A DNA stretch of 64,000 nt, taken from NCBI GenBank assembly GCA_019096065.1, contig JAGUCH010000005.1, forward strand, positions 3,410,001 through 3,474,000. The letters run 5' to 3'. Shown piece by piece: positions 380-35,300 of the stretch. How positions within the stretch are numbered: the first letter of the stretch is position 1; every line of letters starts with the position of its first letter. The notes under the pieces were generated by a model. That model did not search any database, was not told where the DNA came from, and saw nothing but the letters and a program-made list of their open reading frames with translations. The translations under genes were made by a program, and so were the position numbers. Origin of the DNA: Paracyclopina nana (taxonomy: Eukaryota > Arthropoda > Copepoda > Cyclopoida > Cyclopettidae).

Positions 380-3300
380 TTGCCTTTGATCAGGCTGGTT
401 ATTTTTCCTCTACGATCAGATGAGTCGGATGACACGGGTCTTTTTTGCTCTCGCGGCTTTTCGCAGTCTTGGAGGTTTCCCACGAAAATGGCAATGACAC
501 CCAAGATTTCAGTGGTGAGCGAAATATCCACATCCATCCATGAAATGTCTAGTTGCCGTAGCAGCGAATTGATTGCATCCCTCAGTGATTTCTCGTCAGA
601 TTGCTGGCGAGAAAGCCTCAAGACAACCCTTAATAAAGTTGGAAGGCCAGTTGGCCTTTTTTGTCGGCCATCATTGAAGCGTGTGAAATGTTTCCTCAAG
701 AGGATGGTCAGTTGCCGGCTCATATAATCTAAATGACTTGCGAGCATATCTTCGATCTTTGGATAACCGCAGGCCTGAAAAAATGGCAGTGTGAAGTTCG
801 CAAGAAATGCCGGTTTTTCTAGTATATACCAACCAACCTTTGACAACTGGGAGAGAGCATGAAAGAGTACATGAGCTTGATGGCTATGAGTGACATTGAC
901 ATGCTTGAGACAGTAGACCAGGCAGTTGCCAACGTTATCCCGATCAAAAGATCTGCAAAGAAATTAAATCTTATGAAGAATATGCTACCAAGAAATCATG
1001 CTATCTTATTGCGTAACGTTCATATCGGATTTCGCATATATGCCTAGAAAGAGCTTCAATTACGTTCTATGCGCGTGGAGAGCCAAACACTCAAAAAATA
1101 ATTGCATGCTTCAAGAAAATATTAACTTGTACAAAATAGCTTCCACGCTGTAATCTGTTGCTCGTAAAAAGTGGTAAACGCAAGTCATGTTCTACTTTTG
1201 GAGAGCTACACTGTATGTTCAATTTATAAAGCTACCTTATGGAGTTTTCCCCGATGGCAGCCAGATTTTTTGCCATGAAGCCAAATCCCTCCATTATCAG
1301 CAATCTTGAGCTCCACTCAATGTCCTCGTTGCTTTCCTCATTGTTGCCCTCTCTATTTCTCATAGGAATGCTGAGCTCATGATTTCCAGGTGGCTCGTAG
1401 CTCAAGTAGGATTCCACCAGGTCGAAAACGAGCGAGTCATTGTGAAAGCCATGCAGTATCATTAAGTTGAGCAAAATAATCGACTCTCGTTCGTGTTGGC
1501 TGCTGCTGCGCATTTTCACACTCAAGTGGTTGACGATGATGTCAGAGCGGCAGTAAGTAGCTAAAATCCCTGCAATCAATTCCATTCTCTCTTGTAGTTC
1601 AAGAGACCCTAGATGCCTGTATAGCTTTTCTGGGGCCCTCAAAGACGCAGAAGAGGAGGACTCGAAGAGAAAGTCGCAGTCTCTCAAATTAAGAAATGCA
1701 GCTTCGGTGACAAGGCTTTTCTTACGTAGTTGCACCAGCGCGAGCAGAGCATCCAAGAGCTGGCAAACGTAGGTGTCAGAGTAAAAGAAAAGGCTGAAAG
1801 AGATGAAGAAAAACGAATCATCATGGTTATCAATGCAAAGTCATGTGCAATCGTTATAAATTGATTTTAAAAAACGCTCGCACTGCAATATCATATAGTC
1901 CTCAATTATGACATACCATTTTCCACGAGTATTAGCTAAGAGCACTTTTTTCTTTGATATGGTTGATATACTTTTCATGAAGGAAATTGTTCACTAGCTG
2001 AGCATGACAAGCTGTACAGCCAAAGTCCAGATAAGTTTACACTATTGCATACGTATTTCTTGCTTGACACCCCGGACCAATTCATAGTTTTAAAATAGGC
2101 AAACTTTACTGAAGGCTTCATACGTAACTCAATATTTCATATGACGTCATCGGTTTAATCTCGAGGGAAATTCAAAGCACTACGAACTTGTTTCATATTT
2201 GATTTTTTTACACATAAATGCACTTCACGTTATGCTAAATTTAGAGCTGCTTCTCGGTCGTTTCCGCGAAACTGTGCAATTATAATAACCAGATGGGATG
2301 CCGGAAGCATGACTAGCCTAATATTGTAATTTACCTCGAAGTCTCGATTTGGTTGAGCAAAAGGAGGTAGCCATGGAGTGCAGACAAGTGCTTTTCGAGC
2401 ACTTTTTCCTCGTGAAACAGGTTCTCCGCATAATTCGAATTTGCCACGATTTGCGACACCTCAAAAATTTTTGCATGCGCCTGGTCAACCACCCAAGCAG
2501 GCACTTTGCATTCACGATCCTTTTCGTCTCGGGCCAAATGATCCAAAAGCTCAATTAGCGTTGTTTTGCTCCTGTCACGAACTGCCTGTTCGTGATCCAC
2601 ACTCAAAATGGTGAGGATGTCAACCTAAACAATTTTGGCAAGATCTATTAACACATAAATAATAATAATACGAATCTTGCTATACCATTATAGGCGTGGA
2701 ATTTCGCAAGCTTTTCCAGGAATGCCAATGTAATCCTGCGCACAATGTTTGCAAAGCTTTGCGGACGATGAAATGTGTGTGCACTGTCATTGTGGCGTAC
2801 ATTTGCATATGCTGAAACAGATGATCCTGAGCTTTGCCCACCCATTGAGGATCCCCAAGTTCGGCGCGAACACCAGGGATTTTATCACTTTCGTCATCGA
2901 CCGACAAAAAACCAACATTGTCATCGTTGAGAATAGTTGTCACGAGCCTCGTCCACAAAAGAATGCACTTGGCCTTAATTTTGTGAGCCTGGCTTTGAAA
3001 ATTGCGCCTTAACGTCTTCATCAATCTGGTCGTGGATCCAGGCAACATGGGCGCAAATCTGACCACATATTTGTCGTAGCATTCCTCATCGGGCTCGATT
3101 ATCAAGCTTTCCAACGCATCGAGAGCTGCCATGACGACAATGCGAGGGCTGTCATCACTTTCGGTCCATTCCAGCAGCTGAAAAACAATGTGACTGATTG
3201 GGAGCTTCATCTCTTCCTCGTACACAAACAGTTTGACATCCTGAGATGCACTTTTGATGAGGCATGTAATGAGATTAGCGAAAGACACTTTGAAATCCTC

Positions 3301-3624
3301 CGAAAGCTTGTCTTTGCCTATGCTTAGGGTGAGACAACTCGAGATCAAATCTTTGAAAACGAATGTGCTTGTCAGAGTGGATTTGCCGTAGAAAGTCGTG
3401 ACAAAATCGAGCACAGCCAAAGTGTAATTCTCTGGCATCGTCGGCGTTTTCATGTAGAGTTGCATTGGGAAAACGATGTATTCTTGCAGTCTTGCCAATC
3501 CCCCGGCATTAGGATAGTGAATCACTAGTTCTTTAAGTTTCTCTAGAATGGCCTTGGACGGCTTTGACGCCAAGGCCGAGCAATAAGGCCGGAAAGTGGT
3601 AAACAACTGCTCGTCCTCAGACAT
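380..3624 (-). CDS. Tti1: TELO2-interacting protein 1 (TTI1), 5' part, runs off the left edge
   Basis: TTI1 is the HEAT-repeat scaffold of the TTT complex (TELO2-TTI1-TTI2), which with R2TP/HSP90 matures PIK-related kinases such as mTOR, ATM and ATR. The exons I read are 3624-2686, 2624-2335, 1793-1236 and 952-380. Phases are 0, 2 and 2, and all agree across the junctions. They give about 786 residues; animal TTI1 is about 1,090, so roughly the last third is missing beyond the window. From memory of the family, the N-terminus (MSEDEQLFTTFRPYCSALAS) aligns with vertebrate TTI1, as do EYIVFPMQLYMKTP, MTVHTHFIVRKAL and HLDYMSRQLTILLRKH. The last donor (AA|GTAGAG at 379) is weak, so the end of exon 4 is uncertain. 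The start codon is fixed by the upstream neighbour: the Gemin2 stop codon ends 5 nt before this ATG, leaving no room for a promoter or a separate 5'UTR between the two genes. Confidence 0.85.
1794..2334 (-). other. TTI1 intron 2
   Basis: An AT-rich 541-bp intron lies between AG|GTAA (donor at 2334) and TTTCAG (acceptor at 1794). No conserved reading frame or repeat was noticed. The other TTI1 introns are 2625-2685 (61 nt) and 953-1235 (283 nt). Confidence 0.7.
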
Positions 3625-3629
3625 TTCTA

Positions 3630-4952
3630 CTATTGCTCTTCGTCAGCCAAATCCACTTGGCCAAAGTATTTTGCTACCAAGCAAATGATGAGGTTCAAGT
3701 GAGAGACAGTATTTTTGGCAGAGTTGACGTCAACGATTCGGCCTCGTTGCTTGCTGCAGACAATCAGGAATGACCTCAAGGAACTCTCCACGTCAGGATG
3801 AAGTGGCTTCTCAACGACGCTTAATAATGCATAAAACCAGAGAGCCTGGCTGGAATTGACCGCTTCTGTATCTTCCGCCCACTCGGAGTGAAACTCAATT
3901 AATCTCGTGATTGTGGACTGCTTCAGCTGGGAAATAAGGCTTATTAACGGAGGATGGCCTTCGCCAGTCTCTGAGGCAAAGCTCTTTTTATCTGGCTTCT
4001 GATCGTGGGCTTTTTTCTCCTCGTCATCCGACTCATTGGCTTTTCGGGCCTCAATGAGATTCCTCCAAAATTCGTCTCCCAGGCAGAACGAACACCAACC
4101 TGTTACAAAATGGCAGTAAGTAAACCAGCTCGTTAAGGATGTCAATTACTGATTCAGGCATTTAAGATTAAACGAGGAAAAAATGGCCTCTTCGACTTAA
4201 CTTATCTACACTACAAGAAAGTAGGCATGCCATACGAAGCAGTTACTTTCAAAATTTTTCACTTTCTGCTTTAAAATGTTTGTGAGCTCATTCTTTAAGC
4301 CGTAAAATAAATTTAATGTTGTGCACGATTGGTCCTAATGAGTAAATTAAACAGCATAAAATGAGGAACTCAAAAAAGCATATTTTTCTAGCCGTTGATT
4401 GGCCTAGATGGACATTAGTCAACATCAATTCACCATGATTACTTCAGTTCCTGGATACATTTTCTGATTCTAGTTATTTACCGTATTCGTTCTTTAGGGA
4501 TGGTTGCTTGAAGGGAGTTACCACAGTTTCACCGTTGGCTCTGAGAAGAGCCAAGTGCCTGGCCAATTTCAACCTGACAGACGTGAAATCAGCGACTTGT
4601 GCTAATTGCCACTCTTTTGAAGGCAAAAGGCCATCAACTTGCACATTGGCCTTGTTTCGATCCACGTGAGTTGGCTCTTTTGGAGGAACAGCTAGGAGCT
4701 CCTCAGCATTTGACGCTGAAACAAGAAATTAAGGCATCTTTTCCAGCTTAAATCTTGAAGGAGCACATTACCAATCACCACAGATTGGAGCTTTTTCGCC
4801 TCACGAATGACTTTTTTCAAGTACTCCTCTCCAGAAGTCGGCGGCTTTTCAGCATCTTCGTCGACGGCAAGGTCGTCCTCATCCACATAAAGGGCTCGAG
4901 CAAGAAGTTCTTCCTCTGTTTCGTCCTGCTCAAAAACCAGAGAGGAGGCCAT
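3630..4952 (-). CDS. Gemin2: Gemin2 (SMN-complex subunit, SIP1 family)
   Basis: Gemin2 binds SMN and the Sm pentamer during cytoplasmic assembly of spliceosomal snRNPs. There are three exons: 4952-4772, 4715-4482 and 4099-3630 (stop included). Phase is 1 at both junctions and the product is 294 residues, against about 280 in human. The first exon has an acidic segment followed by PPTSGEEYLKKVIREAKK, matching the family motif PRTPQEYLRRV. Exon 2 carries SKEWQLAQVADFTSVR, equivalent to the family WQ..QVA.FS.VR. Exon 3 carries GWCSFCLGDEFW, HPPLISLISQLKQSTI, LWFYALLSVVEKPLHP and the near-invariant C-terminus LNLIICLVAKYFGQVDLADE. The ATG at 4952 is the first in frame; the codon reading MCSV upstream begins with GTG. 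TTI1 follows on the same strand after 5 nt. I see no AATAAA between the two genes. Confidence 0.93.
4100..4481 (-). other. Gemin2 intron 2
   Basis: A 382-bp AT-rich intron lies between G|GTAAAT and GTAACAG. No repeat or coding potential was seen. If TTI1 has its own transcription start, this intron or the last Gemin2 exon is where a promoter would have to lie. Confidence 0.7.
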
Positions 4953-6291
4953 GACCGAGCACACTTCCCATTTGGTCCGAAAATTGCAGAAAGAGTGTTC
5001 TGGAGTAACGACTTCTTCTTGTTTTCATCGAATTCCCCATGCACGCACGTGGGTAGCTCAGTCCACGTGCCGGTACGGCAAAAACAATAACATTGCGCGA
5101 CGGGTCTTAGAAAGCTCACTTTTCGAAATAGCTTTTTAAAAATAATTTCATCATATAAACTCTAATTAAAATCAGCCAAAATGCCATTTTATATTTATTT
5201 TAGTCATAATTAAACTTATTATTAATTTAATGTTAAGCTACTTTGGCAGCAATTTCCAGATATATTTTATGCTTACTATAAGGCCCTTTTGGCCTTGTAT
5301 GTGATTGGCTCAGCAATTCTCGTCTGCTTCCAAGGGCTGTGCAGCACGGATTTCGCCCGTCACGAACTAATATGGCTGCCAGATTGGCTTCTAGCGGAAT
5401 CTAGCAACTGTTTCCTTGAAAAAAATATTTTGGGAACGCAAGTTATTTCCTCCCTTTTTAGTCCTTAGTAGGAAAGTAAACAGTAAAAATGATTTAAAAG
5501 TTGGTAGCAGTTTTTCGCCAAATTGGCTGGCGTCGAAAATGGCGTTTATCGACTCGACATTGAAAGCTTTTTCTGGTAACTTCAGACTTTGTGTGCACTG
5601 CGCTTGTGCGTTTTTCTTTGCCTTCCTGTCAAAAGATCTCCTGCAAAGCGTAAAGCATTTTGACATTTACCGAGCTGCAAAATTTGGGGCAAACTTCAAT
5701 TCATCTCTCTGGTAATTTTACATAAGATATTCATAATGTTTTATTCCAAATTTGAGCATTAGAAAGATTGCAGAGAATATTTGAGCATTTGCTACTTGTT
5801 CAATTGGCAAAAAACCTCATACTCCTTTCAAAAATCGTTCAACTAAATGCTGTGCGTTCTAGCGTTGTTGCATCACCGCCGTTCGTAATTACTGGACCCC
5901 GAGCGTCACCGAAAGAGCAATTATTGGCAACTTTGCTGAGGTCGCAACGTCCTCAGGTAGGCCTTGATCACGTTAATTATGGGCTCATTTTAAAGCCCCT
6001 GCTCCGCCCTCTCAGCCGAGTCCACTTTTGCGATTGCTGCTACCAGCGAAAAGTGGGAAAAATCGAGCGAGAAAAAGTACTGCGCGTTCACCTCCTCTAG
6101 CTATTGGCTATGGAAGAGTCACCCTGTATTTTTGCTAAGAGCAGAAGTTAGTTTCTTATGTGTGAAAGTTGATCTCTTAATGTGAGCTTCTCAAATTCAG
6201 GTGTGATGTCAATAGCATGTTCATTGGTGGTGAGGTCCGGTCCCGTGTACAGATCAAAGCTTGAGCAGTGATAACACAAAGAAGCAGCAAC
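4953..6291. other. Divergent intergenic region between Gemin2-TTI1 and FBXO28
   Basis: This 1.3 kb holds the 5' ends of a minus-strand (Gemin2) and a plus-strand (FBXO28) transcription unit. It contains short open frames on both strands, such as one with ATGGCG at about 5538, but none resembles a protein I know. CCTCAG|GTAGGC near 5960 and AAATTCAG near 6199 could bound a 5'UTR intron of FBXO28. That is only a splice-site reading. Confidence 0.4.
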
Positions 6292-8665
6292 ATGATAAGA
6301 ATGAGGCCACACACTCGGACGCAATGCCAAGATGGCAACCAATGTCCAGAGTGTAGAGAAACCCCAGCAGCAACTCCGGCCACTCCCGCAGCCTCCGCAG
6401 CTGCAGTGACAGCCTCGACGTCCTCGGGGGGCGTTGACCACTTTGTCGCCCCCGTGAGCACTGTTTCAAGGAGGCCTCAACAGCAAAGTCACTCGCAAAT
6501 TTTAAAAGTGCAACAACCTCAGGCAGATGATGCGCCTAAACGAGCCCTTCTTGTGGTCGAGCTGCCCGCCGAGATCCTGTTCAAGATCTTGAGCTATATG
6601 TCTTTCAAAGAAATAAGTCATCTTAGGATGGTACGTGCTCTTTTATTAAGCAACTTTAAGGTCTTAATTCCCCGCGAGGTGGCGCTATTCATTCTGCCAT
6701 TTCGGCCCCCTGCCATGCAGCCTGCTTTAACAGGCACCAGCGCCACCTAGCGGAACAATCTACGCCGATTATCAGTGTATGCCTGAGGCAATATATGATG
6801 ACTAATGAGTTTTTTTCTCACAGGTATCCAGACGCTTCAATGAAATTTGTGCCTCAATGCTCAACAGCACTTTTCATCGTCTCCAGAGCCAAATGTTGTC
6901 AAGATTCCAGGAGATCAAGACGCAAATGCCTCGCAGAGAATCTGCCAGGAGGTAATGGCGATAATCAGGCTATATCCGTGTGATTTATGCATGCATTATG
7001 TGTATGTTTATTACAGGAACCACCCCCTGGCTCAGGAATGTGACGTAGTTGAGACGCTACATATGAGACTGAGTCTACTGCAAATGACATTTGGAAAGCA
7101 CATTGAGCGAAAGCATGTGTGCTTTTTTGCTGGAGAGGTTCGTTGTTTGGATTTTTTTCTCCCCCAGGAACGTCACCGCTGATTAATCGCCTTTTCCCCG
7201 TAGATTTTGGACGAAGTCCAGCGCATTATGAGGTACATCCGTCACACGCCAAACCAGCATCCTAAAAGGGGTGCTTACATCTTCATGGAGGACGAGCTCT
7301 TTGACCTCACCACCATGGCCATGGAGTATTTTAAGGAGCATATTGAGCCAACCCTTCCGGAGATCACCTACTTTGGTGCTGACTTCCTTGACTTTACGTC
7401 GTTTGCAAGTGAGTACAGGTTTTTCAACAGGTCACTAACCTTTATGTATGCGCTTGCCGAATCAGGAGATATCTAGCACGCTTTATTAGCTGTCAACAGC
7501 TTTGCTGCAGTTAAAAATATTGCGATGTGCAAACATTTTTTGTTAAATCAACATTGCGCACCTTCGAGATCATAAGTTATGGGATATGAAGTAGCTAGTA
7601 ACCTTTTTTCTCTTAGCTCCTACAAAAAAGCGTTCAGTTAGCGGAAGTACAAGCATCTTGGGCAATGGCCTGGACTCACCATGTTCATCAAGGGCATCGG
7701 TGGCTGGATCCTGCGTATCCGAGCCTTGGTCCACGACCTCGACTGCGGCCACTGGTGAGGTGATGGACATTGAGCCTCCTCCACCTCAGCCACCCCAGTC
7801 CAACATGGTATTGCGGAAACGAATCCGTCGCATTCGGCAAGGCATGAAAAGATACAATGACCAGCTGGTTGAGGTCAAGAAGGAGTTGAAGACATGTAAA
7901 ACCAAAATGGAGACCCAGTCAAAGACGGTTCAGGAGTATTCCCAACGCCTTGAGGACTACGACAAAAAGTTCGAGGAAAGCTCAAGGAAGTTCCAAACTT
8001 TGCTAACTGTAAGTAAAGGCCCACCCATTTTTGTGCATTTTTCAAATGGCCTGCAGTACGACATATATGTTGAAACCTGCGACATACTCGGCCTTTCTTC
8101 CTTTATGGTCTGGCATTCACTACATGACCCTTTTTTTGTGCATATGCTGCAGGAGCTGAACAAGTGCAAGACAGAACTGCAGTATTGGAGGTCAAAGTCC
8201 ACCACTTTGTTGTCGTTGCCGTCGACTTGTGCTTCGTGCTCGGCACCGTTGTTGCCTAATCAGTCCGCAGAAGAGACGGAGGCCGAAATCAAGGCCTTGG
8301 CCAACCAGGGTATCTTCCTCACTACTGAGGATCTCATGGTGGATGGACAAGTACAAAAGCTCGAGGACTCTTGCCAGGCCACAACCTCGTCTTTGGCTGA
8401 GCCGTCGTCCCCTACGACTCAGACTAGAGCCGGATCAGGGTCAGCTGCTTGCAAAAGCGGCCCTCCTTCCCCAGTCTCTGTTGTGGGCCGGAAACGGCGG
8501 TCTCGCGATGACATTGCCTTGGAGGAGGTCGCTGCGGCCACCGCTGGAGCCTCTACGCCCGACCTCAGCGTGGAGACCAAGAGGAAAAGTAGCCTTAGAG
8601 GCAACTCGGCCTCTGCGGCCAAAAGCACTCGATTCAAACGACCCAAGATCGCCTCCGTGAATTAG
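6292..8665 (+). CDS. Fbxo28: F-box only protein 28 (FBXO28) homologue
   Basis: F-box proteins supply substrate specificity to SCF (Skp1-Cullin1) ubiquitin ligases; vertebrate FBXO28 is nuclear. There are six exons: 6292-6630, 6824-6951, 7017-7137, 7204-7408, 7617-8008 and 8153-8665. Phases agree (0, 2, 0, 1, 0) and the product is 565 residues. The F-box is at about residues 86-126 (VELPAEILFKILSYMSFKEI, then HLRMVSRRFNEICASML). Family-specific stretches follow: QMPRRESARR, ETLHMRLSLLQMTFGKHIE, CFFAGEILDEVQRIMRYI and MAMEYFKEHIEP. A coiled coil runs from about 329 to 412, and Lys/Arg-rich C-terminal patches (GRKRRSRDD, RFKRPKI) look like nuclear signals. Human FBXO28 is about 368 residues, so this one has a longer low-complexity N-terminus and Ser/Ala-rich C-terminus. 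An in-frame TGA at 6262 and the lack of an earlier ATG support the start at 6292. Intron 5 (8009-8152) is 144 nt and free of stop codons. Confidence 0.9.
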
Positions 8666-26547: not shown

Positions 26548-27008
26548 CTTGCTAATGCTGCCAAGCTACTGATAAAAGATCAAAGCACCATTACAACTCA
26601 TTTTCAATGCGATTCATGCATATAATCTAGTCAAAAAAAGGCCTCGCCCAAACATTTTACATTTTAAATGTGGTGTGCAAAATCAATGAATTTGCAGCTG
26701 GATTTGTCCAGTACAATTAACATGTACTGAAGAGTATAAAATCCAGGGCATCAGGTAAAGGGGGAATAGCAATCAAATGTCTGTTTCGTTTCGCATTGTT
26801 AATGTCAATGCATTCATTATGGCAGTCTTGTTGAAACACCCTGCTTAAGGTGATGTTGAGCGTGTGCGTATCGTGATAAAACTGAGCCTACGAGTATAGC
26901 TACTTCTTTATAAACAGCAGGTAAAACTAGGCATACAACAAAAATATAGCATCACTCCGGTTCATTTCATCTTTTTGGCTAGCCGAAAGCTGCCACAAGT
27001 GAAACAAA

Positions 27009-28979
27009 ATGGCTGGAACACTGAAGCAATATCTTGGCCATTTCTGGAGGACCTGGGTGATTTTCTTGGCACCAGCCTTTTTATGCTGGATACTATGGAT
27101 CGATTTGGAGAACCAACGAGCCATGAAATGCTTGTACATTTTGGTAATTATGGCAGTTTACTGGATGACCACAGCTCTGCCATTGCCCATCACATCCTTG
27201 ATCCCCATTGTGGCATTTCCTCTATCCGGAATAATGAGCACCAGTGCAGTGTGTGCAACCTATTTCAACTCCACCATGTTCATGTTCATAGGCGGCCTTG
27301 TCATGGCCTTGGGCATCGAGGAGTCCGGCCTGCACAAGAGAGCAGCTCTCAAGATACTCATGCTGAAATTCCTTCGGACTCGCAACTGGGGAATTATGCT
27401 TGGGTTCATGTCTGTCACTGCTTTCCTCTCCATGTGGGTATCCAACACAGCCACAGTGGCCATGATGATTCCAATCGTGGATGCTGTATGCGAATCCCTC
27501 TACAGAGATGGTATGGATCACAGGACCAGAAATATGCTCCTCTTGTCTGTGGCCTACTCAGCTAATATTGGTGGCACTGGAGTCATCACTGGGTCACCCC
27601 CAAATTTGATTGTGTTGCCTCAGCTGAAGGACTCTCCGGTTACGTACGGCTCTTGGATGGCCTTTTGCATCCCTTTGATGCTCTTCAATTTGATCGTGGC
27701 TTTCTTGTGGCTTCAACTAATGAACTATCTCATATCAAAGTTCAACCTGTTCGAGCCAGATCCTGAACGAGTTCGCTTATATGATGAGATGGTGCAGAAG
27801 AGAGCAAAGATTGAGGAGATTGTGCATGAAATAGATGGCGACAAAACAGTTGATGAGGAAAAACTGGAGGATTCGTTGAATACAAGCCATATGTCTTCGG
27901 CTTCAGAGGACACTCTGGAAACGAGCCTTGAGATGGGAAAAGTCGACGCTGATCCAGCCGCAAAAGCAAATAAGGAAAGTCCCACAGGCGCAGCACAGAA
28001 GGGACACGATAAGATTTTTGAGGTTCTTATGGAGGAACGAGAAAAGTTGGGCTCGTTCAATATTCAAGAGGCTTTGATGCTCGCAAGTTTTTGCACCCTC
28101 ATCGTTTTATGGTTTCTGCTCGACCCAAAGTTCATAGATGGATGGGGAAAGTGAGATGAACGCGCGGACCATTTCTTATAGCTGTAACCATCATTTATTT
28201 GTTACTATAGGTATTTCACCTCTACGTTGGAAGACGGTACAAAAATCACAATGAGTGGGGCCACACCAGCCATGGCTATGATTCTTGTGATATTCGTTTT
28301 GCCCAAAAAAGGCCAATTTTGGCCATTTCTGAAGAAAGGCAGGGAACCTCGAAGCTCCGAGGGTTTATTAACGTGGTACAAAATCGAGAAAAATCTGCCT
28401 TGGGGAGTTTTGCTTTTGCTCGGGGGAGGATTTGCCCTGTCACAAGGCTGCACTACATCCGGATTGTCCGACTGGATTGCGGACTTATTGAAGGCTATCA
28501 GTGGATTGTCTCCGTGGGTCCTAAACTTGATTGTGAGCGTTGTGGCAGCTACAATCACTGAGTTCGTCTCAAACACAGCCACAGCCAATATCTTGGTGCC
28601 AATTCTCCGACAACTGGCATTGTCATTATGCCAAAATCCGATTTACCTAGGTGACTTGAATTTCCACTTCATGTTGTATAGCAACAAGATAATCAAACTC
28701 GTGTTTTTTGCAGTCATGACTACGGTGATTTCGTGTTCGTACGCGTTCATGCTGCCAGTGGCCACTGCTCCAAATGCTTTGGTTTACGACGCCAGTACCT
28801 TCAAGACAAGTTTCATGAGCTCCGTTGGGTTCTTCATGAATGTGATTTGCGTGGTCAACACGAATGTGGCCATCAACTTGTACGGCGAAGCAGTTTTTGG
28901 CAGTTTTGACGGAATCCCAGTCTGGGCAGAGAAATTCGGGTCACAAGAAGTGATTAGTAATTGCTCACGGATTCTCTGA
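27009..28979 (+). CDS. Indy: Indy-type SLC13 sodium-coupled di/tricarboxylate transporter
   Basis: This is a plasma-membrane carrier of the SLC13 (DASS) family; relatives import citrate and succinate, and fly Indy affects metabolism and lifespan. There are three exons: 27009-28150, 28211-28650 and 28714-28979. Introns are 60 and 63 nt, phases are 2 and 1, and the product is 615 residues. Two SNT motifs that form the substrate and sodium sites are present: SNTATV at 145-150 and SNTATA at about 501-506. GGTGVITGSPPNL lies near 190-200, and SCSYAFMLPVATAPNA in exon 3 is the family C-terminal signature. Many hydrophobic helices alternate with a charged, acidic loop of about 80 residues (about 270-350), longer than the membrane core requires. 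Intron 2 is a multiple of three without stop codons. Ion coupling cannot be decided from sequence, since fly Indy itself is reported as an exchanger. Confidence 0.93.
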
Positions 28980-29344: not shown

Positions 29345-32300
29345 CTAACAGTTGGTGTTGTAGCTTGGGTTCGTTTTGGTAACAACAGGTGAAATAGAGT
29401 TCAAGTCTTTCATCAAGCCTTCAAGGTTCTTCATTTCTGCATTGAGTTCTTCTGCACTGAGAGAATGCTAAAAGCAAAAAGCGAAAAAATGATGCCATTG
29501 TACGAAAACTAAAAACTATTTTACTCACCCTCATCGGATGGCTCAGACAATCACAGGGCCCATCTTGAGGATGGAGAACATCTGGACTCCGGACGTCAGC
29601 AATGGTTGGCAAATGCCCGGATTGGAATGGACTGTCAGTCACACTTGGAGGCCTCTCCGAAGTTTGTCTGCCCCCTGAAGAGGATGAGGTGGTCGCCATG
29701 CTGCTTCCACTATCACTGCCGTTGCTGCTGAATCCGAAGACGGAAATATGATGGTTCAAGTTGCCACCCACCAAGGACGGTTTCTTGAACGGACTAGTTG
29801 GTGCTGCTGGATTTAGGTCTACAATAAAAGAAAATTCTCAGTCCACTTCCTGTCTATATATGTAGGAATAAAAATCTTACTCTTTGGTTGACTATTTGAA
29901 GTTGAAAAGCTTCGCAAGTGCGAAGTTGACGCGTGAGATCCGGATGACTGCCTACGGAAATGAGAATTTCCATTGTGGCTATTGGTGGTGTTTGAAGATG
30001 AGTCTCCACTTGAGGTCGACATTGCCGAACTGAGGTAGGTTGCGGGCACTTGGGGAGGCTGAGCTGGAATCGAGCCCGAAGCCGAAATCCCAAGAACGCT
30101 GCCATTCACAGAATGAATGGCATCCGGATCGCCAATTGTCGACGGGGGTCCATCCGAGGGAGCTGTGCAAGTGAGAGAGGGATCATAGCCTGGCAAGGGT
30201 GGAAGATCGTCTGGTGAGGTTAAAGAGAGATCCATCAGTCGATCGGAAAACATGGAAGTGTTGGCCATGTTCAAGGGAGGAGGATTTATATTGTATTGAG
30301 ATCGGATATAAGTGCTAGAGCTGGCAGAGCTTCCATTAATAATCGAAGATGCGACGGCTGAAAAGAGAGATTAGTTGAGTGATCATATAACATATACATA
30401 TTATCACTCACAAAAACATTTATATATCTATCTTATATGTTCAAAACTGTAAACTGAGCTGTAACTGTAGATTCATTAAAAGTTTTTTAGAATTCCATTG
30501 GATATGTGAATTTTTAAGTTGTTTGTGTCTGTTTTAAAAAAGTGTGTAATGGGGTAAAAAATAAAAGAGTAAAAATCATGTTAGCGATGGTTTGATGCAT
30601 AAATGAGACTAAAGGGGAACAACCAAATGTAAAAGCACTCACATTCCCGACTTAGGTATCTCTGCACTCGAGGTTTTCCACTAATGGCCGCAATTTTGAC
30701 TGGTTTATGACCAGTGGGGCTAACAATGAGCCTAGCGCCACTGCAGAGGCCACCGTTGCTGCTACGAGGATTTTGGCCTCCACGGAGGCCGTTCAAGAGC
30801 GAAAATGAAACTTCCGAGTCTGTGCCTGTGTTTGACATAAGCAAAAAGAAAAAATAGGGAATCAAGCAAAACTCATCAAGCAAACAAATTAGGCAAAAAA
30901 ATGCAGGGTACGTAATGCTGTATTAAGATGTACAAATTTGTAGTGTGTAGAAAAATGTGGAACTGAAATAAGAAAGCTCACCTGAATATTGGCCATTTTG
31001 GATGTAGTTCCGAGTTCGCTCCATTGTTGCTCGATAATCTGGGGTCGACCTGGTGAGAGTAGTTTCGCCAGTCTCGTCACAAATGGCACTAGCAGCCTCG
31101 TCAGAGATATCTTTCAACTCAAGCTGATCATGGCCAATCCACAAGTCTGGAGGAGGCGGATTCAACTTTTCGCGAGTGCCAGTTCCCATGGATTCGGCGT
31201 TGTGGTAGGTCTTATTATTTCTTCCCTCGTTGTCCGGAACAGCTTGGCATTTGTATCGAATGAGGACCACTGCACCAATGACAAGTACGAGTATGATGCC
31301 AGCTCCCACTCCGAACACAGCATACAGGACAATGGGACTGATTTCATCATTGCTGGTCGTAACCACGGCCAAATTTGAAGAATCAATCAAATTGGTTCTG
31401 GCCGAGTTGAAATCCGAAATGAGATTGGGGGCTGTGGTGAAGTGGACAATCTGGCCTGGAGGTCCATATCCCTTGTTGTTGCGAGCACTCATTTTGAAAT
31501 AGTATTTGGTATCTGGCAAAAGGTTCCTGATGGTCGCCATGGTTCCGTCACCAACGACGGCCTCCACAAACCAATCGCGGTCATCTGCTCGCCGGTCAGT
31601 CGTGTACTGAATCACATAGCCATTAATATGGCCGTTCGTGTGCTTCGGCGGCCTCCAAGACAAATGGACGCTATTAGGGCCAGCTTGACGGATCAAAATG
31701 TCCTTTGGCGCAGAAGTCGGGGCAGCCTCGCGGGTTCTGTTGGTCGCCACAAGGCTCCAGCCGCTTTGCCTACGGCCCTTGACAATCTTAACTGCGAATT
31801 CGTACTCGGTGGCTGGCCTCAAGTCGTCAATCATGACATTGAGGTCGGTCGAGTTTCGATAGGAGAAGTGCCTTTCGGCCTCTATTAAATTGCCCTCTGA
31901 AACGGGGCCGTATTGCACGATGTAGTAGCGAGCATCCGGAATGACTTGGTTCCTGGGTAGCGTGGAGTCCATCCAAGTGAGGACCACTGTGGAAGAGGAG
32001 AGCACGATGGGGTGCAGGCCCACTGGGGGCAGTAGAGGCGTAGCGGGCTCCGGATCATACGACTTCTCCTTGGTTCGCACAGTCTCGTAAATTGGCCTTC
32101 CATCGCCAATATTGTTGTACGCCCTCAGGCTGATGACATACTCCGAGTTGGGCTTCAAGTCTGGAATCACAAATTCCCGATGCTTCCCGTCCACGATTTG
32201 AGTGTACTCATCCGGAATCCCCTTGCCCCAGCCAATTGTGTAGCCACGCACCATGATCCGGTTAATTCGCGGAGGCTGCCAGTGAATGGTAATGTCAGCA

Positions 32301-35300
32301 TCTGTCGAAGTGGCAATTAGCCCATTAGGAGGGTCGGGCACCACTGACTCGTCCAAGTCTGCTAGAAGAGTCTTTGATGTCATCCAAGATGTTGCAGGAC
32401 CGGTGCCATTCACAGTCATGGCAGCCATTTTGACCTGATACTCTTTGTCCTTGGACAGGCCAGTGATAACAAAAAGCCTGCGACTGCCATCGGTCGTCAC
32501 AATTTCAGTCTGGCCTTTTCCTTTGAGCCTCCACCTTATCTTGTATCCTGTGATGATCCCATTTTGAGACTCTTTGGGGGGAGGCTCCCATCGCACCGTC
32601 AAAGAGGTCGAGCTGATGGCCTCGAGGCTTACATTTTGGGGAGGGTCAGCAGGGAGATCAGAAAATGTCATGCAGGTGATTTCCTCGGATAAGGCTCCTT
32701 CCCCGTTGCCGTTAGAGGCCGAGATCCAGAAGACGTATTCAGTGAACTCCCGCAACTCGGTGACGTGATATTGCAAAGAGTCTGACTCCACAATCACGTT
32801 TTTCGTGGGCGTTGAAAAATCTCCCTGGAAAGCATAAAGAGCAAATCATTGCACAAAATGTGCCAAGAAAAACAGATTTAGGTGCACACGAAAAGAGTGT
32901 TAACGGGGTAATATTTCTGGAGACGTGTGCCATGTTGTTGCTGCAATTAGTCAGTTCGAAAAATAACAAAGGGTGCAGATAGAGGCGTATATTCACTACT
33001 GCTATAAAAGCAGGCAGTCTAAAGTACTACACGTAGAATAACATTTCCCAGCGGACTTGAGAGGCAGCACTAGGATTATCTTGGAAAAAGTTGGGGCACT
33101 TTTTTCCAAGGCCAAAAAAGTAACTCATGTAGATCAAAAAGCGCCACAGCAGAAACTTTACCCATGTACTACCACATAGTATGCGTGTAATGTTGGATGC
33201 TTTCTTTTTTACCTGTCTGTAGTAGAGGTTGTACTTGGAGATGACACCACTCGTGTGGGCTGGAGGAGACCATGATACGAGAATGCTGAACGAGGTCGTG
33301 GGTTTGGCCTCCAGTCTCAGCACAGGGCCCGGAAGGTCGATTTCAGCCTCGGTGAAAACTTTCAGAGGATCTGAGGATTCACCAGTTCCATGCTGGTTTC
33401 TAGCCACAATCCTGAATAAATAACTTGTTCCGGGGCTGAGGCCGTTGATATTGACCTCCTCGAGGTTGCCTCGTGTAGAATTTAAAACTCGCTCGCGATT
33501 CGAGCCTTCTTGCTTGTAAAATATGGAATAGCCATTGATGGGCTCCTTGCTGATCATTGGAGGTGACCATGAGAGCGTGACGAACCTCGAGGCCACGATG
33601 GCAGCCTTCAGGTCCATTGGGGCCGAGGGTGTGTCCCGAGTCACGAACGGACCTACTCACATACAATGCGGTTATTAAATTTCCCAAGGGCTACGAAAGT
33701 GAAAACTAAAGGCCATACTTGGATCGTCGGATCTTGGCAGGATAGCTTGATCGGCAGGCAGAATATTGGCAGACTTCATGCTCATAACTTCAGCCTCAAC
33801 TGAACGATTGTAGAAGAGTGAAGGGGAAAAAAAGGAAAAACATAATTAGCTAAGCTAAAAACAGTATAATATTGCAAGCATATATACGTATATAATAGAA
33901 AGTGAAACAAAAACGATTACAGATGCCGATCGGAAATACGCTTGGATTTCCGATCAGGAACTGCACGCTGCATTGTAGCAAGCTAAATACAAGTTTGTAT
34001 CCGTATTGAGCAACTTACTGAGCTTCTTGGTCACTTTCAGCTCGGCTGAAGATTGGATATTTCCCACCACGTTCGCGGCCACGCACTGGTAAATCCCTGA
34101 GTCGAGGCCGACCAGTCCGAGGATCTTGAGGCTGCTCCCACCAACAATTTGAAAGTATTCACTTTCAATAATGAGGTCGCCGTTCTTATACCACTGCACA
34201 GTGGGCTGAGGCTCTCCGGCAACCTCGCACTCCAGCTTGATGTCTCCCTTCTCAAGGGCCACTGTGTTTTGCGGCCTCTTAGTGAAAGTTGGTGGCCTCG
34301 CGACTTGCAACTCAGCCGCAGCGTCAATTGAATCTTCGGAATTTTCAGCCCTGCACTGGTAAGTTCCAGCGTCCTCCGGCCTCAAATCTTTGATGTGGAG
34401 GCTGCCTGATCCAACTCGATGGAATCTAGAGTCCAAATGATTGAGGTCAAGACTCGCTCCGTCTTTGAGCCACATAATCTCGGGTTTGGGGTTTCCTGAG
34501 GCCGCACACTCCATGGTAACTTCCGATCCGAGGCCGTAAGCTTTTGTGTTCTTTGGCCTCGCCAAAAAAACAGGAGGAGAATGGAGCAATCCTAAATGAA
34601 TTAAATTAGTGAGAAGCAGCAATTTTTACAATCCGAATTTTCGCGAATAATTCACTTTTGTTGGCGAAAAAACATTCAATTCTTAGAAAATAGCTTTTCT
34701 CTCGAAGAGGTCATTCAAGCTTCTTAGCTTGAATCTCGAATCGAAATAGGAAAAAACGCACCTAAAACAAATAGTGCAGAAGTATATATAGTATATTTTT
34801 ACTACGAGTGTAGAGAACTATCTTGAGTAATCCATCTCAAGTGATGAGCAAGAAAGGGCTACACCCGAGATTCTTCTAGCACAGCGGGGATTATTTTGTA
34901 AAAAAAAGTTTGGGCTTCATATTATGTAGCAGAGGAAATGGTTTGAATAAAAGCATCAAATCCTATAAAATAATTTTGAGGATCTGAGCGTCCAACATTT
35001 TTTTGTTGTATTACAAATCCGAGCCAATTTTCCGGAGCTTGAAAGGTCTCGGTTTTTTGGCTGATTTTGATTGATGGAGAAAGGAAGAGCTATCATTCAT
35101 ACTGGCAGCGTTGGAGTCCGTACCATTTTTTGGCTGGATAATTAGGAAATTTGGATCTAGAGTGTGGAGAGACCGTTGTCTGCTCCAATAAAAATGACGA
35201 TGCAACAAAGCTGCTTAGATCATGGATTATTATTGTTCCATACACGAGTTTTCGATTTTCATTAACGTATATTTTTAGCCTGCATCATCTTATGCGCGTC

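Follow-up and report, generated by a model that had tools for sequence, protein, structure and literature searches.

Gemin2 and TTI1 five bases apart on one strand of a copepod genome: a candidate dicistronic unit

Two complete genes separated by five bases

The window analysed here, a stretch of 64,000 nucleotides from the copepod Paracyclopina nana, carries on its minus strand the genes Gemin2 and TTI1, the second of which continues beyond the window (negative coordinates; adjoining locus L003). Their parts are as follows, each with the evidence on which it was assigned.

4772..4952, minus: Gemin2 exon 1, coding from ATG 4952 (translation, splice sites, PF04938 on the spliced protein)
4482..4715, minus: Gemin2 exon 2 (translation, PF04938 on the spliced protein)
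3630..4099, minus: Gemin2 exon 3, ending with TAG 3632-3630 (translation, alignment to human Gemin2)
3625..3629, minus: intercistronic TAGAA, its TAG being a second in-frame Gemin2 stop (sequence read)
2686..3624, minus: TTI1 exon 1, from ATG 3624 in the context GAAATGT, with G at -3 and T at +4 (translation, family match)
2335..2624, minus: TTI1 exon 2 (translation)
1236..1793, minus: TTI1 exon 3 (translation)
838..952, minus: TTI1 exon 4 (translation)
384..774, minus: TTI1 exon 5 (translation)
L003 9709-9424, 8913-8721 and 8101-7817, minus: TTI1 exons 6-8, beyond the window (translation)

The three Gemin2 exons, separated by two GT...AG introns (56 and 382 nt), encode a product of 294 amino acids that matches the Gemin2/SIP1 family over positions 1-214 of 215 (PF04938, E = 5.9e-50) and human Gemin2 (3.8e-35). 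As the human alignment extends to residue 292 of 294, the stop codon at 3632-3630 represents the real C-terminus. TTI1 comprises eight exons and 1018 amino acids without an inner stop (coding sequence of 3057 nt), and terminates at window coordinate -2183 (L003 7817). Its first 764 residues, the portion submitted to the family search, matched PF24173 (5.3e-47), PF24176 and PF21547 above cut-off, and human TTI1 was recovered at 2.2e-4, with residue 4 of the copepod protein paired with human residue 13, which identifies ATG 3624 as the real N-terminus. The first-pass annotation had assigned both frames to these families and had aligned the TTI1 start with that of vertebrates, and the domain matches and human alignments bear it out on each count. 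The donor of TTI1 intron 5 is of the GC-AG type (AAG/GCAAGT, window 383-378).

Read on the minus strand, the junction is ...GAA GAG CAA TAG TAG AA ATG TCT GAG..., where the Gemin2 stop (3632-3630) is directly followed by a second in-frame TAG (3629-3627) and, after a total gap of 5 nt, by the TTI1 start on the same strand. Rereading the sequence confirmed the first description of this junction to the base, as well as its remark that the gap leaves no space for a poly(A) site or a promoter. The TTI1 frame is offset by 2 relative to that of Gemin2 and holds a TGA seven codons above its ATG. A fusion protein made by stop-codon readthrough of the contiguous sequence is therefore excluded by the frame offset, the double TAG and the upstream in-frame TGA.

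Both genes appear to be single-copy. The SIP1 family had two matches in the genome, both of them exons of this Gemin2 locus, the TTI1-N family had one, at the junction locus, and an 800-base query spanning the junction matched only its own locus in the whole assembly; no further copy of either gene was detected by these family and junction searches. The same junction query showed no retrocopied dicistronic mRNA at any other locus, and that idea was rejected.

Other frames of the window include a citrate/sodium-sulfate transporter (27003-28151, plus strand; PF03600, PF00939) and fibronectin-III frames (30926-33656, minus strand; PF00041) accompanied by a Neogenin_C match below cut-off.

Transcription of the pair

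From this layout we infer, tentatively and at just short of even confidence, that Gemin2 and TTI1 belong to a single transcription unit with a dicistronic mRNA, from which TTI1 would be translated after Gemin2. RNA polymerase II would start upstream of Gemin2, at about 4955-5100. Its products would include at least one spliced mRNA in which Gemin2 is the first cistron and TTI1 the second, with the 3' end beyond the TTI1 stop. Two CACGTG boxes precede the Gemin2 ATG by about 95-115 bp, and GC content is 0.50 in 4801-5100; they define a probable shared promoter region for the two genes.

5046..5069, strand unassigned: predicted shared promoter region, with CACGTG boxes at 5046 and 5064 (inference)

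A third CACGTG box is found at 4663, in Gemin2 exon 2, which makes three within about 400 bp, of 12 in the whole 64 kb window. On the plus strand, an F-box frame (6265-6747; PF00646, 21.5 bits, cut-off 20.5) points away from Gemin2, and a divergent promoter may occupy the stretch that separates the two starts. At the other end, a receptor-like gene (L003 about 4700-7300, plus strand), of seven-helix type by eye, converges on the 3' end of TTI1.

Neither AATAAA nor ATTAAA occurs in the stretch running from the Gemin2 stop through TTI1 intron 1 (3629-2625), where two weak poly(A) variants are present (3482 and 2886). The absence of canonical hexamers was dropped as proof of co-transcription and counts as weak evidence, since 43% of base shuffles of the stretch lack them likewise, as does the entire TTI1 coding sequence. 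Canonical hexamers are found in later TTI1 introns (ATTAAA at 2159 in intron 2, AATAAA at -147 and -1571), at which a Gemin2 mRNA could possibly end inside TTI1. Beyond the TTI1 stop, the nearest is AATAAA at -3048, at a distance of 865 nt.

The strongest alternative, which we regard as quite possible though short of likely, is that TTI1 has a promoter of its own inside Gemin2, in intron 2 or exon 3. The TTI1 mRNA would then be monocistronic, with the 3' coding sequence of Gemin2 as its 5'UTR, and Gemin2 mRNAs would either traverse TTI1 or end inside it, for which the ATTAAA at 2159 offers a site. Such an origin would give Gemin2 coding sequence a double role as promoter and 5'UTR, and it fits the experience of FlyBase, where a downstream gene with monocistronic transcripts usually owes them to an alternative promoter located downstream (PMC4528330). 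Transcripts starting within the following stretch would have ATG 3624 as their first AUG.

3625..3829, minus: ATG-free stretch before the TTI1 start, formed by the end of Gemin2 exon 3 and the spacer

The last Gemin2 ATG lies at 3832, and the 205 nt from 3829 to 3625 suit such an internal start site and a dicistronic mRNA equally; however, an ATG-free tail of this kind is not significant under synonymous shuffling (P = 0.066). Nor does the CpG observed/expected ratio mark a promoter: it is 0.75 at 3601-3900 and 0.96 at 3301-3600, with no step at 3624, but the measure is uninformative here, as values reach 1.21 elsewhere in the gene.

The first-pass annotation had offered three options (a single transcript, an internal TTI1 start, or trans-splicing), which together cover most of the possibilities. 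It had passed over Gemin2 mRNAs that end inside TTI1 at ATTAAA 2159, and also alternative cis-splicing, in which a shared promoter and 5' exon are joined either to Gemin2 or to an acceptor in Gemin2 exon 3. We consider this last scheme improbable. The best of the 42 AGs scored in exon 3, at 3819, reaches 7.19, inside the range of nine real acceptors (1.0-12.6), and is situated just past the last Gemin2 ATG; yet of 205 AGs scored in the remaining coding exons 2 are equally good, and by our estimate one site of this grade among 42 would be expected by chance in about a third of cases.

Spliced-leader trans-splicing of a polycistronic precursor, in the manner of nematode operons, is very unlikely. 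Spliced leaders are reported for copepods and amphipods in the excerpts of PMC7986045 and PMC4664967, but operons in either group are unreported according to the excerpt of the former. Allowing up to three mismatches, we found no match to parts of the calanoid leader or of the siphonostomatoid leaders like1a and 1b, a search that left out the other three leader-like sequences of the same table and would miss an unrelated leader. Nematode-type SL1 gave no match either, although the same search was also silent in every control genome. The eight best acceptor-like sites of exon 3 (lowest score 0.6) include no AG in 3672-3625. Least credible of all is an assembly error that deleted true intergenic sequence, as the deletion would need to have hit precisely the space between two undamaged gene ends, and a single clean copy was found.

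Translation of the second frame

On a dicistronic mRNA, ribosomes would have to reach ATG 3624 past the whole of Gemin2. Leaky scanning is disfavoured, because the Gemin2 start stands in a strong context (GGTCATGG, with G at -3 and G at +4) and is followed by nine further AUGs. These nine ATGs all lie in one frame, where they open frames of only 3-30 codons, and none of the ten Gemin2 ATGs is in the frame of TTI1. Under shuffling, neither their number (10 against 13.2 expected, P = 0.078) nor the absence of frame-2 ATGs, seen in 20% of shuffles (P = 0.20), is significant.

The five-base spacing, together with the probably modest need of the cell for TTI1, leads us to favour low-level reinitiation, weakly, as the translation step. 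Ribosomes finishing Gemin2 would meet ATG 3624 five bases past the first of the two stops and yield a low level of TTI1. A minor route may be open to ribosomes that miss the Gemin2 start and translate just the short frame-1 ORFs (3-30 codons), which would have about 196 nt for recharging ahead of the TTI1 start. Reinitiation after a long cellular ORF is known but normally poor, with about 82-fold less downstream protein in one case described in the excerpt of PMC5972666. The motif UGGGA, given in the same excerpt as that of TURBS-type termination-reinitiation, is absent from 3760-3625. Three stretches at the junction folded no better than their shuffles (z = 0.33, -0.65 and -0.19), and an IRES-like structure there was rejected on these values.

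A stricter version, in which coupled termination-reinitiation, five bases past a cellular frame of 294 codons and without a viral-type signal, is the obligate source of TTI1, seems to us unlikely. If true, it would link the output of TTT (PIKK assembly) to the SMN complex (snRNP assembly) by translational coupling, in an animal. More generally, if one mRNA yields both proteins, the locus would be a dicistron whose products are two long, conserved housekeeping proteins and whose cistrons almost abut, and it would offer a clean natural example of how animal ribosomes get to a second long frame. Automated annotation may join pairs of this kind into one gene or cut them short.

Tight pairs in this genome and known dicistronic systems

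The first-pass annotation had considered a functional link between the two genes plausible, a suggestion that the distribution of their partners leaves unsupported. R2TP does touch both pathways: in the excerpt of a 2022 review, R2TP-TTT is described and a paper on binding of R2TP to the SMN complex is cited (PMC9406135). Family searches of the contigs placed Gemin2-TTI1 on C5, TTI2 on C4 and TELO2 on C8, and recovered three SMN-Tudor matches, of which two lie together on C2 and the third lies at 4.68 Mb on C5, some 1.27 Mb from Gemin2-TTI1. The SMN and TTT pathways are therefore not clustered, with no SMN-like gene close to the pair, and no tight pair was recognised among the neighbouring frames of the TTI2, TELO2 and SMN-like loci in frame listings. 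That the two genes adjoin does not by itself speak for a functional operon. Of the four contig starts read, those of C2 and C5 carry CCTAA repeats, which are suggestive of an arthropod.

A scan for tight pairs by a coding-score method covered 284 kb, namely the window and 22 further loci, each of 10 kb; the nine loci excluded were four contig ends (L005-L008) and five small loci derived from searches (L001, L002, L029-L031). At a cut-off of 0.15 it returned four pairs and missed Gemin2-TTI1; it was then relaxed to 0.05, over 180 bases, with at least 60 codons on each side. The relaxed scan gave seven tight stop-ATG pairs, Gemin2-TTI1 included, among 145 coding-like frame ends, a proportion that is no unbiased rate, because the cut-offs were lowered after the miss and the window had been picked for this very pair; the method also misses genes with short terminal exons. 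Judged by eye from the translations, Gemin2-TTI1 is the sole convincing pair of separate genes among the seven, with one other doubtful. The pairs at L014, L018 and L028 each resemble an intron inside a single gene, and two at L021 are retroelement-like. The doubtful one, a second possible tight pair, is seen on the minus strand of L021 (stop at 982), where the gap is -4 and the downstream frame starts like a signal peptide.

As a positive control, MOCS2A and MOCS2B were located in the same genome, on contig C4 (L034, 8758501-8761500), where 6 nt separate them.

L034 1538-1810: MOCS2A (ThiS, PF02597, E = 5.4e-14)
L034 1817-2785, same strand: MOCS2B (MoaE, PF02391, E = 1.6e-33)

The two share a frame, and that of MOCS2B (322 aa) extends far beyond the MoaE match with which it begins. 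MOCS2, which is CG10238 in Drosophila, is a dicistron conserved among animals (excerpt of PMC2276209, also named in PMC4528330), so this layout almost devoid of a spacer has a known precedent in the genome. The MOCS2 and Gemin2-TTI1 pairs are alike in their gaps (6 and 5 nt) and in lying on one strand each. They differ in the first cistron, as MOCS2A has 90 aa and three further ATGs whereas Gemin2 has 294 aa and nine, and in the relationship of the products: MOCS2A and MOCS2B are subunits of one enzyme, whereas Gemin2 is not known to bind TTI1.

Two further systems resemble the pair in part. Nematode-type spliced-leader operons likewise consist of tight head-to-tail genes, but here limited searches produced no leader RNA, and no good acceptor lies beside the TTI1 start. 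Green-algal bicistronic loci, in the excerpt of PMC11291117, also have short gaps and often differing frames; they are translated by leaky scanning, their first start tending to be weak and ATGs between the starts being few, whereas the start of Gemin2 is strong.

Searches of the genome_contigs collection with Gemin2 exon 3 and of the viral_contigs collection with TTI1 exon 1 gave no relative; the two collections hold bacteria, archaea and viruses. Among the matches listed from the open-licence literature, a search to which the supplementary pair list of FlyBase did not belong, no paper on a Gemin2-TTI1 pairing was found; both gene names co-occur in one gastric cancer study.

The closest comparison is with Drosophila, for which 159 dicistronic pairs have been annotated, 45 of them expressed only dicistronically, and where the loci with polycistronic transcripts only have gaps of -34 to 319 nt (PMC4528330). 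Gemin2-TTI1 shares with these pairs two full and conserved frames on one strand, and its gap (5 nt) lies inside that range. A dicistron in the sense of FlyBase also has a processed mRNA with both frames, while conservation of the pair across species would be supportive rather than defining. It would thus be a new candidate case of an arrangement that is rare but known in animals.
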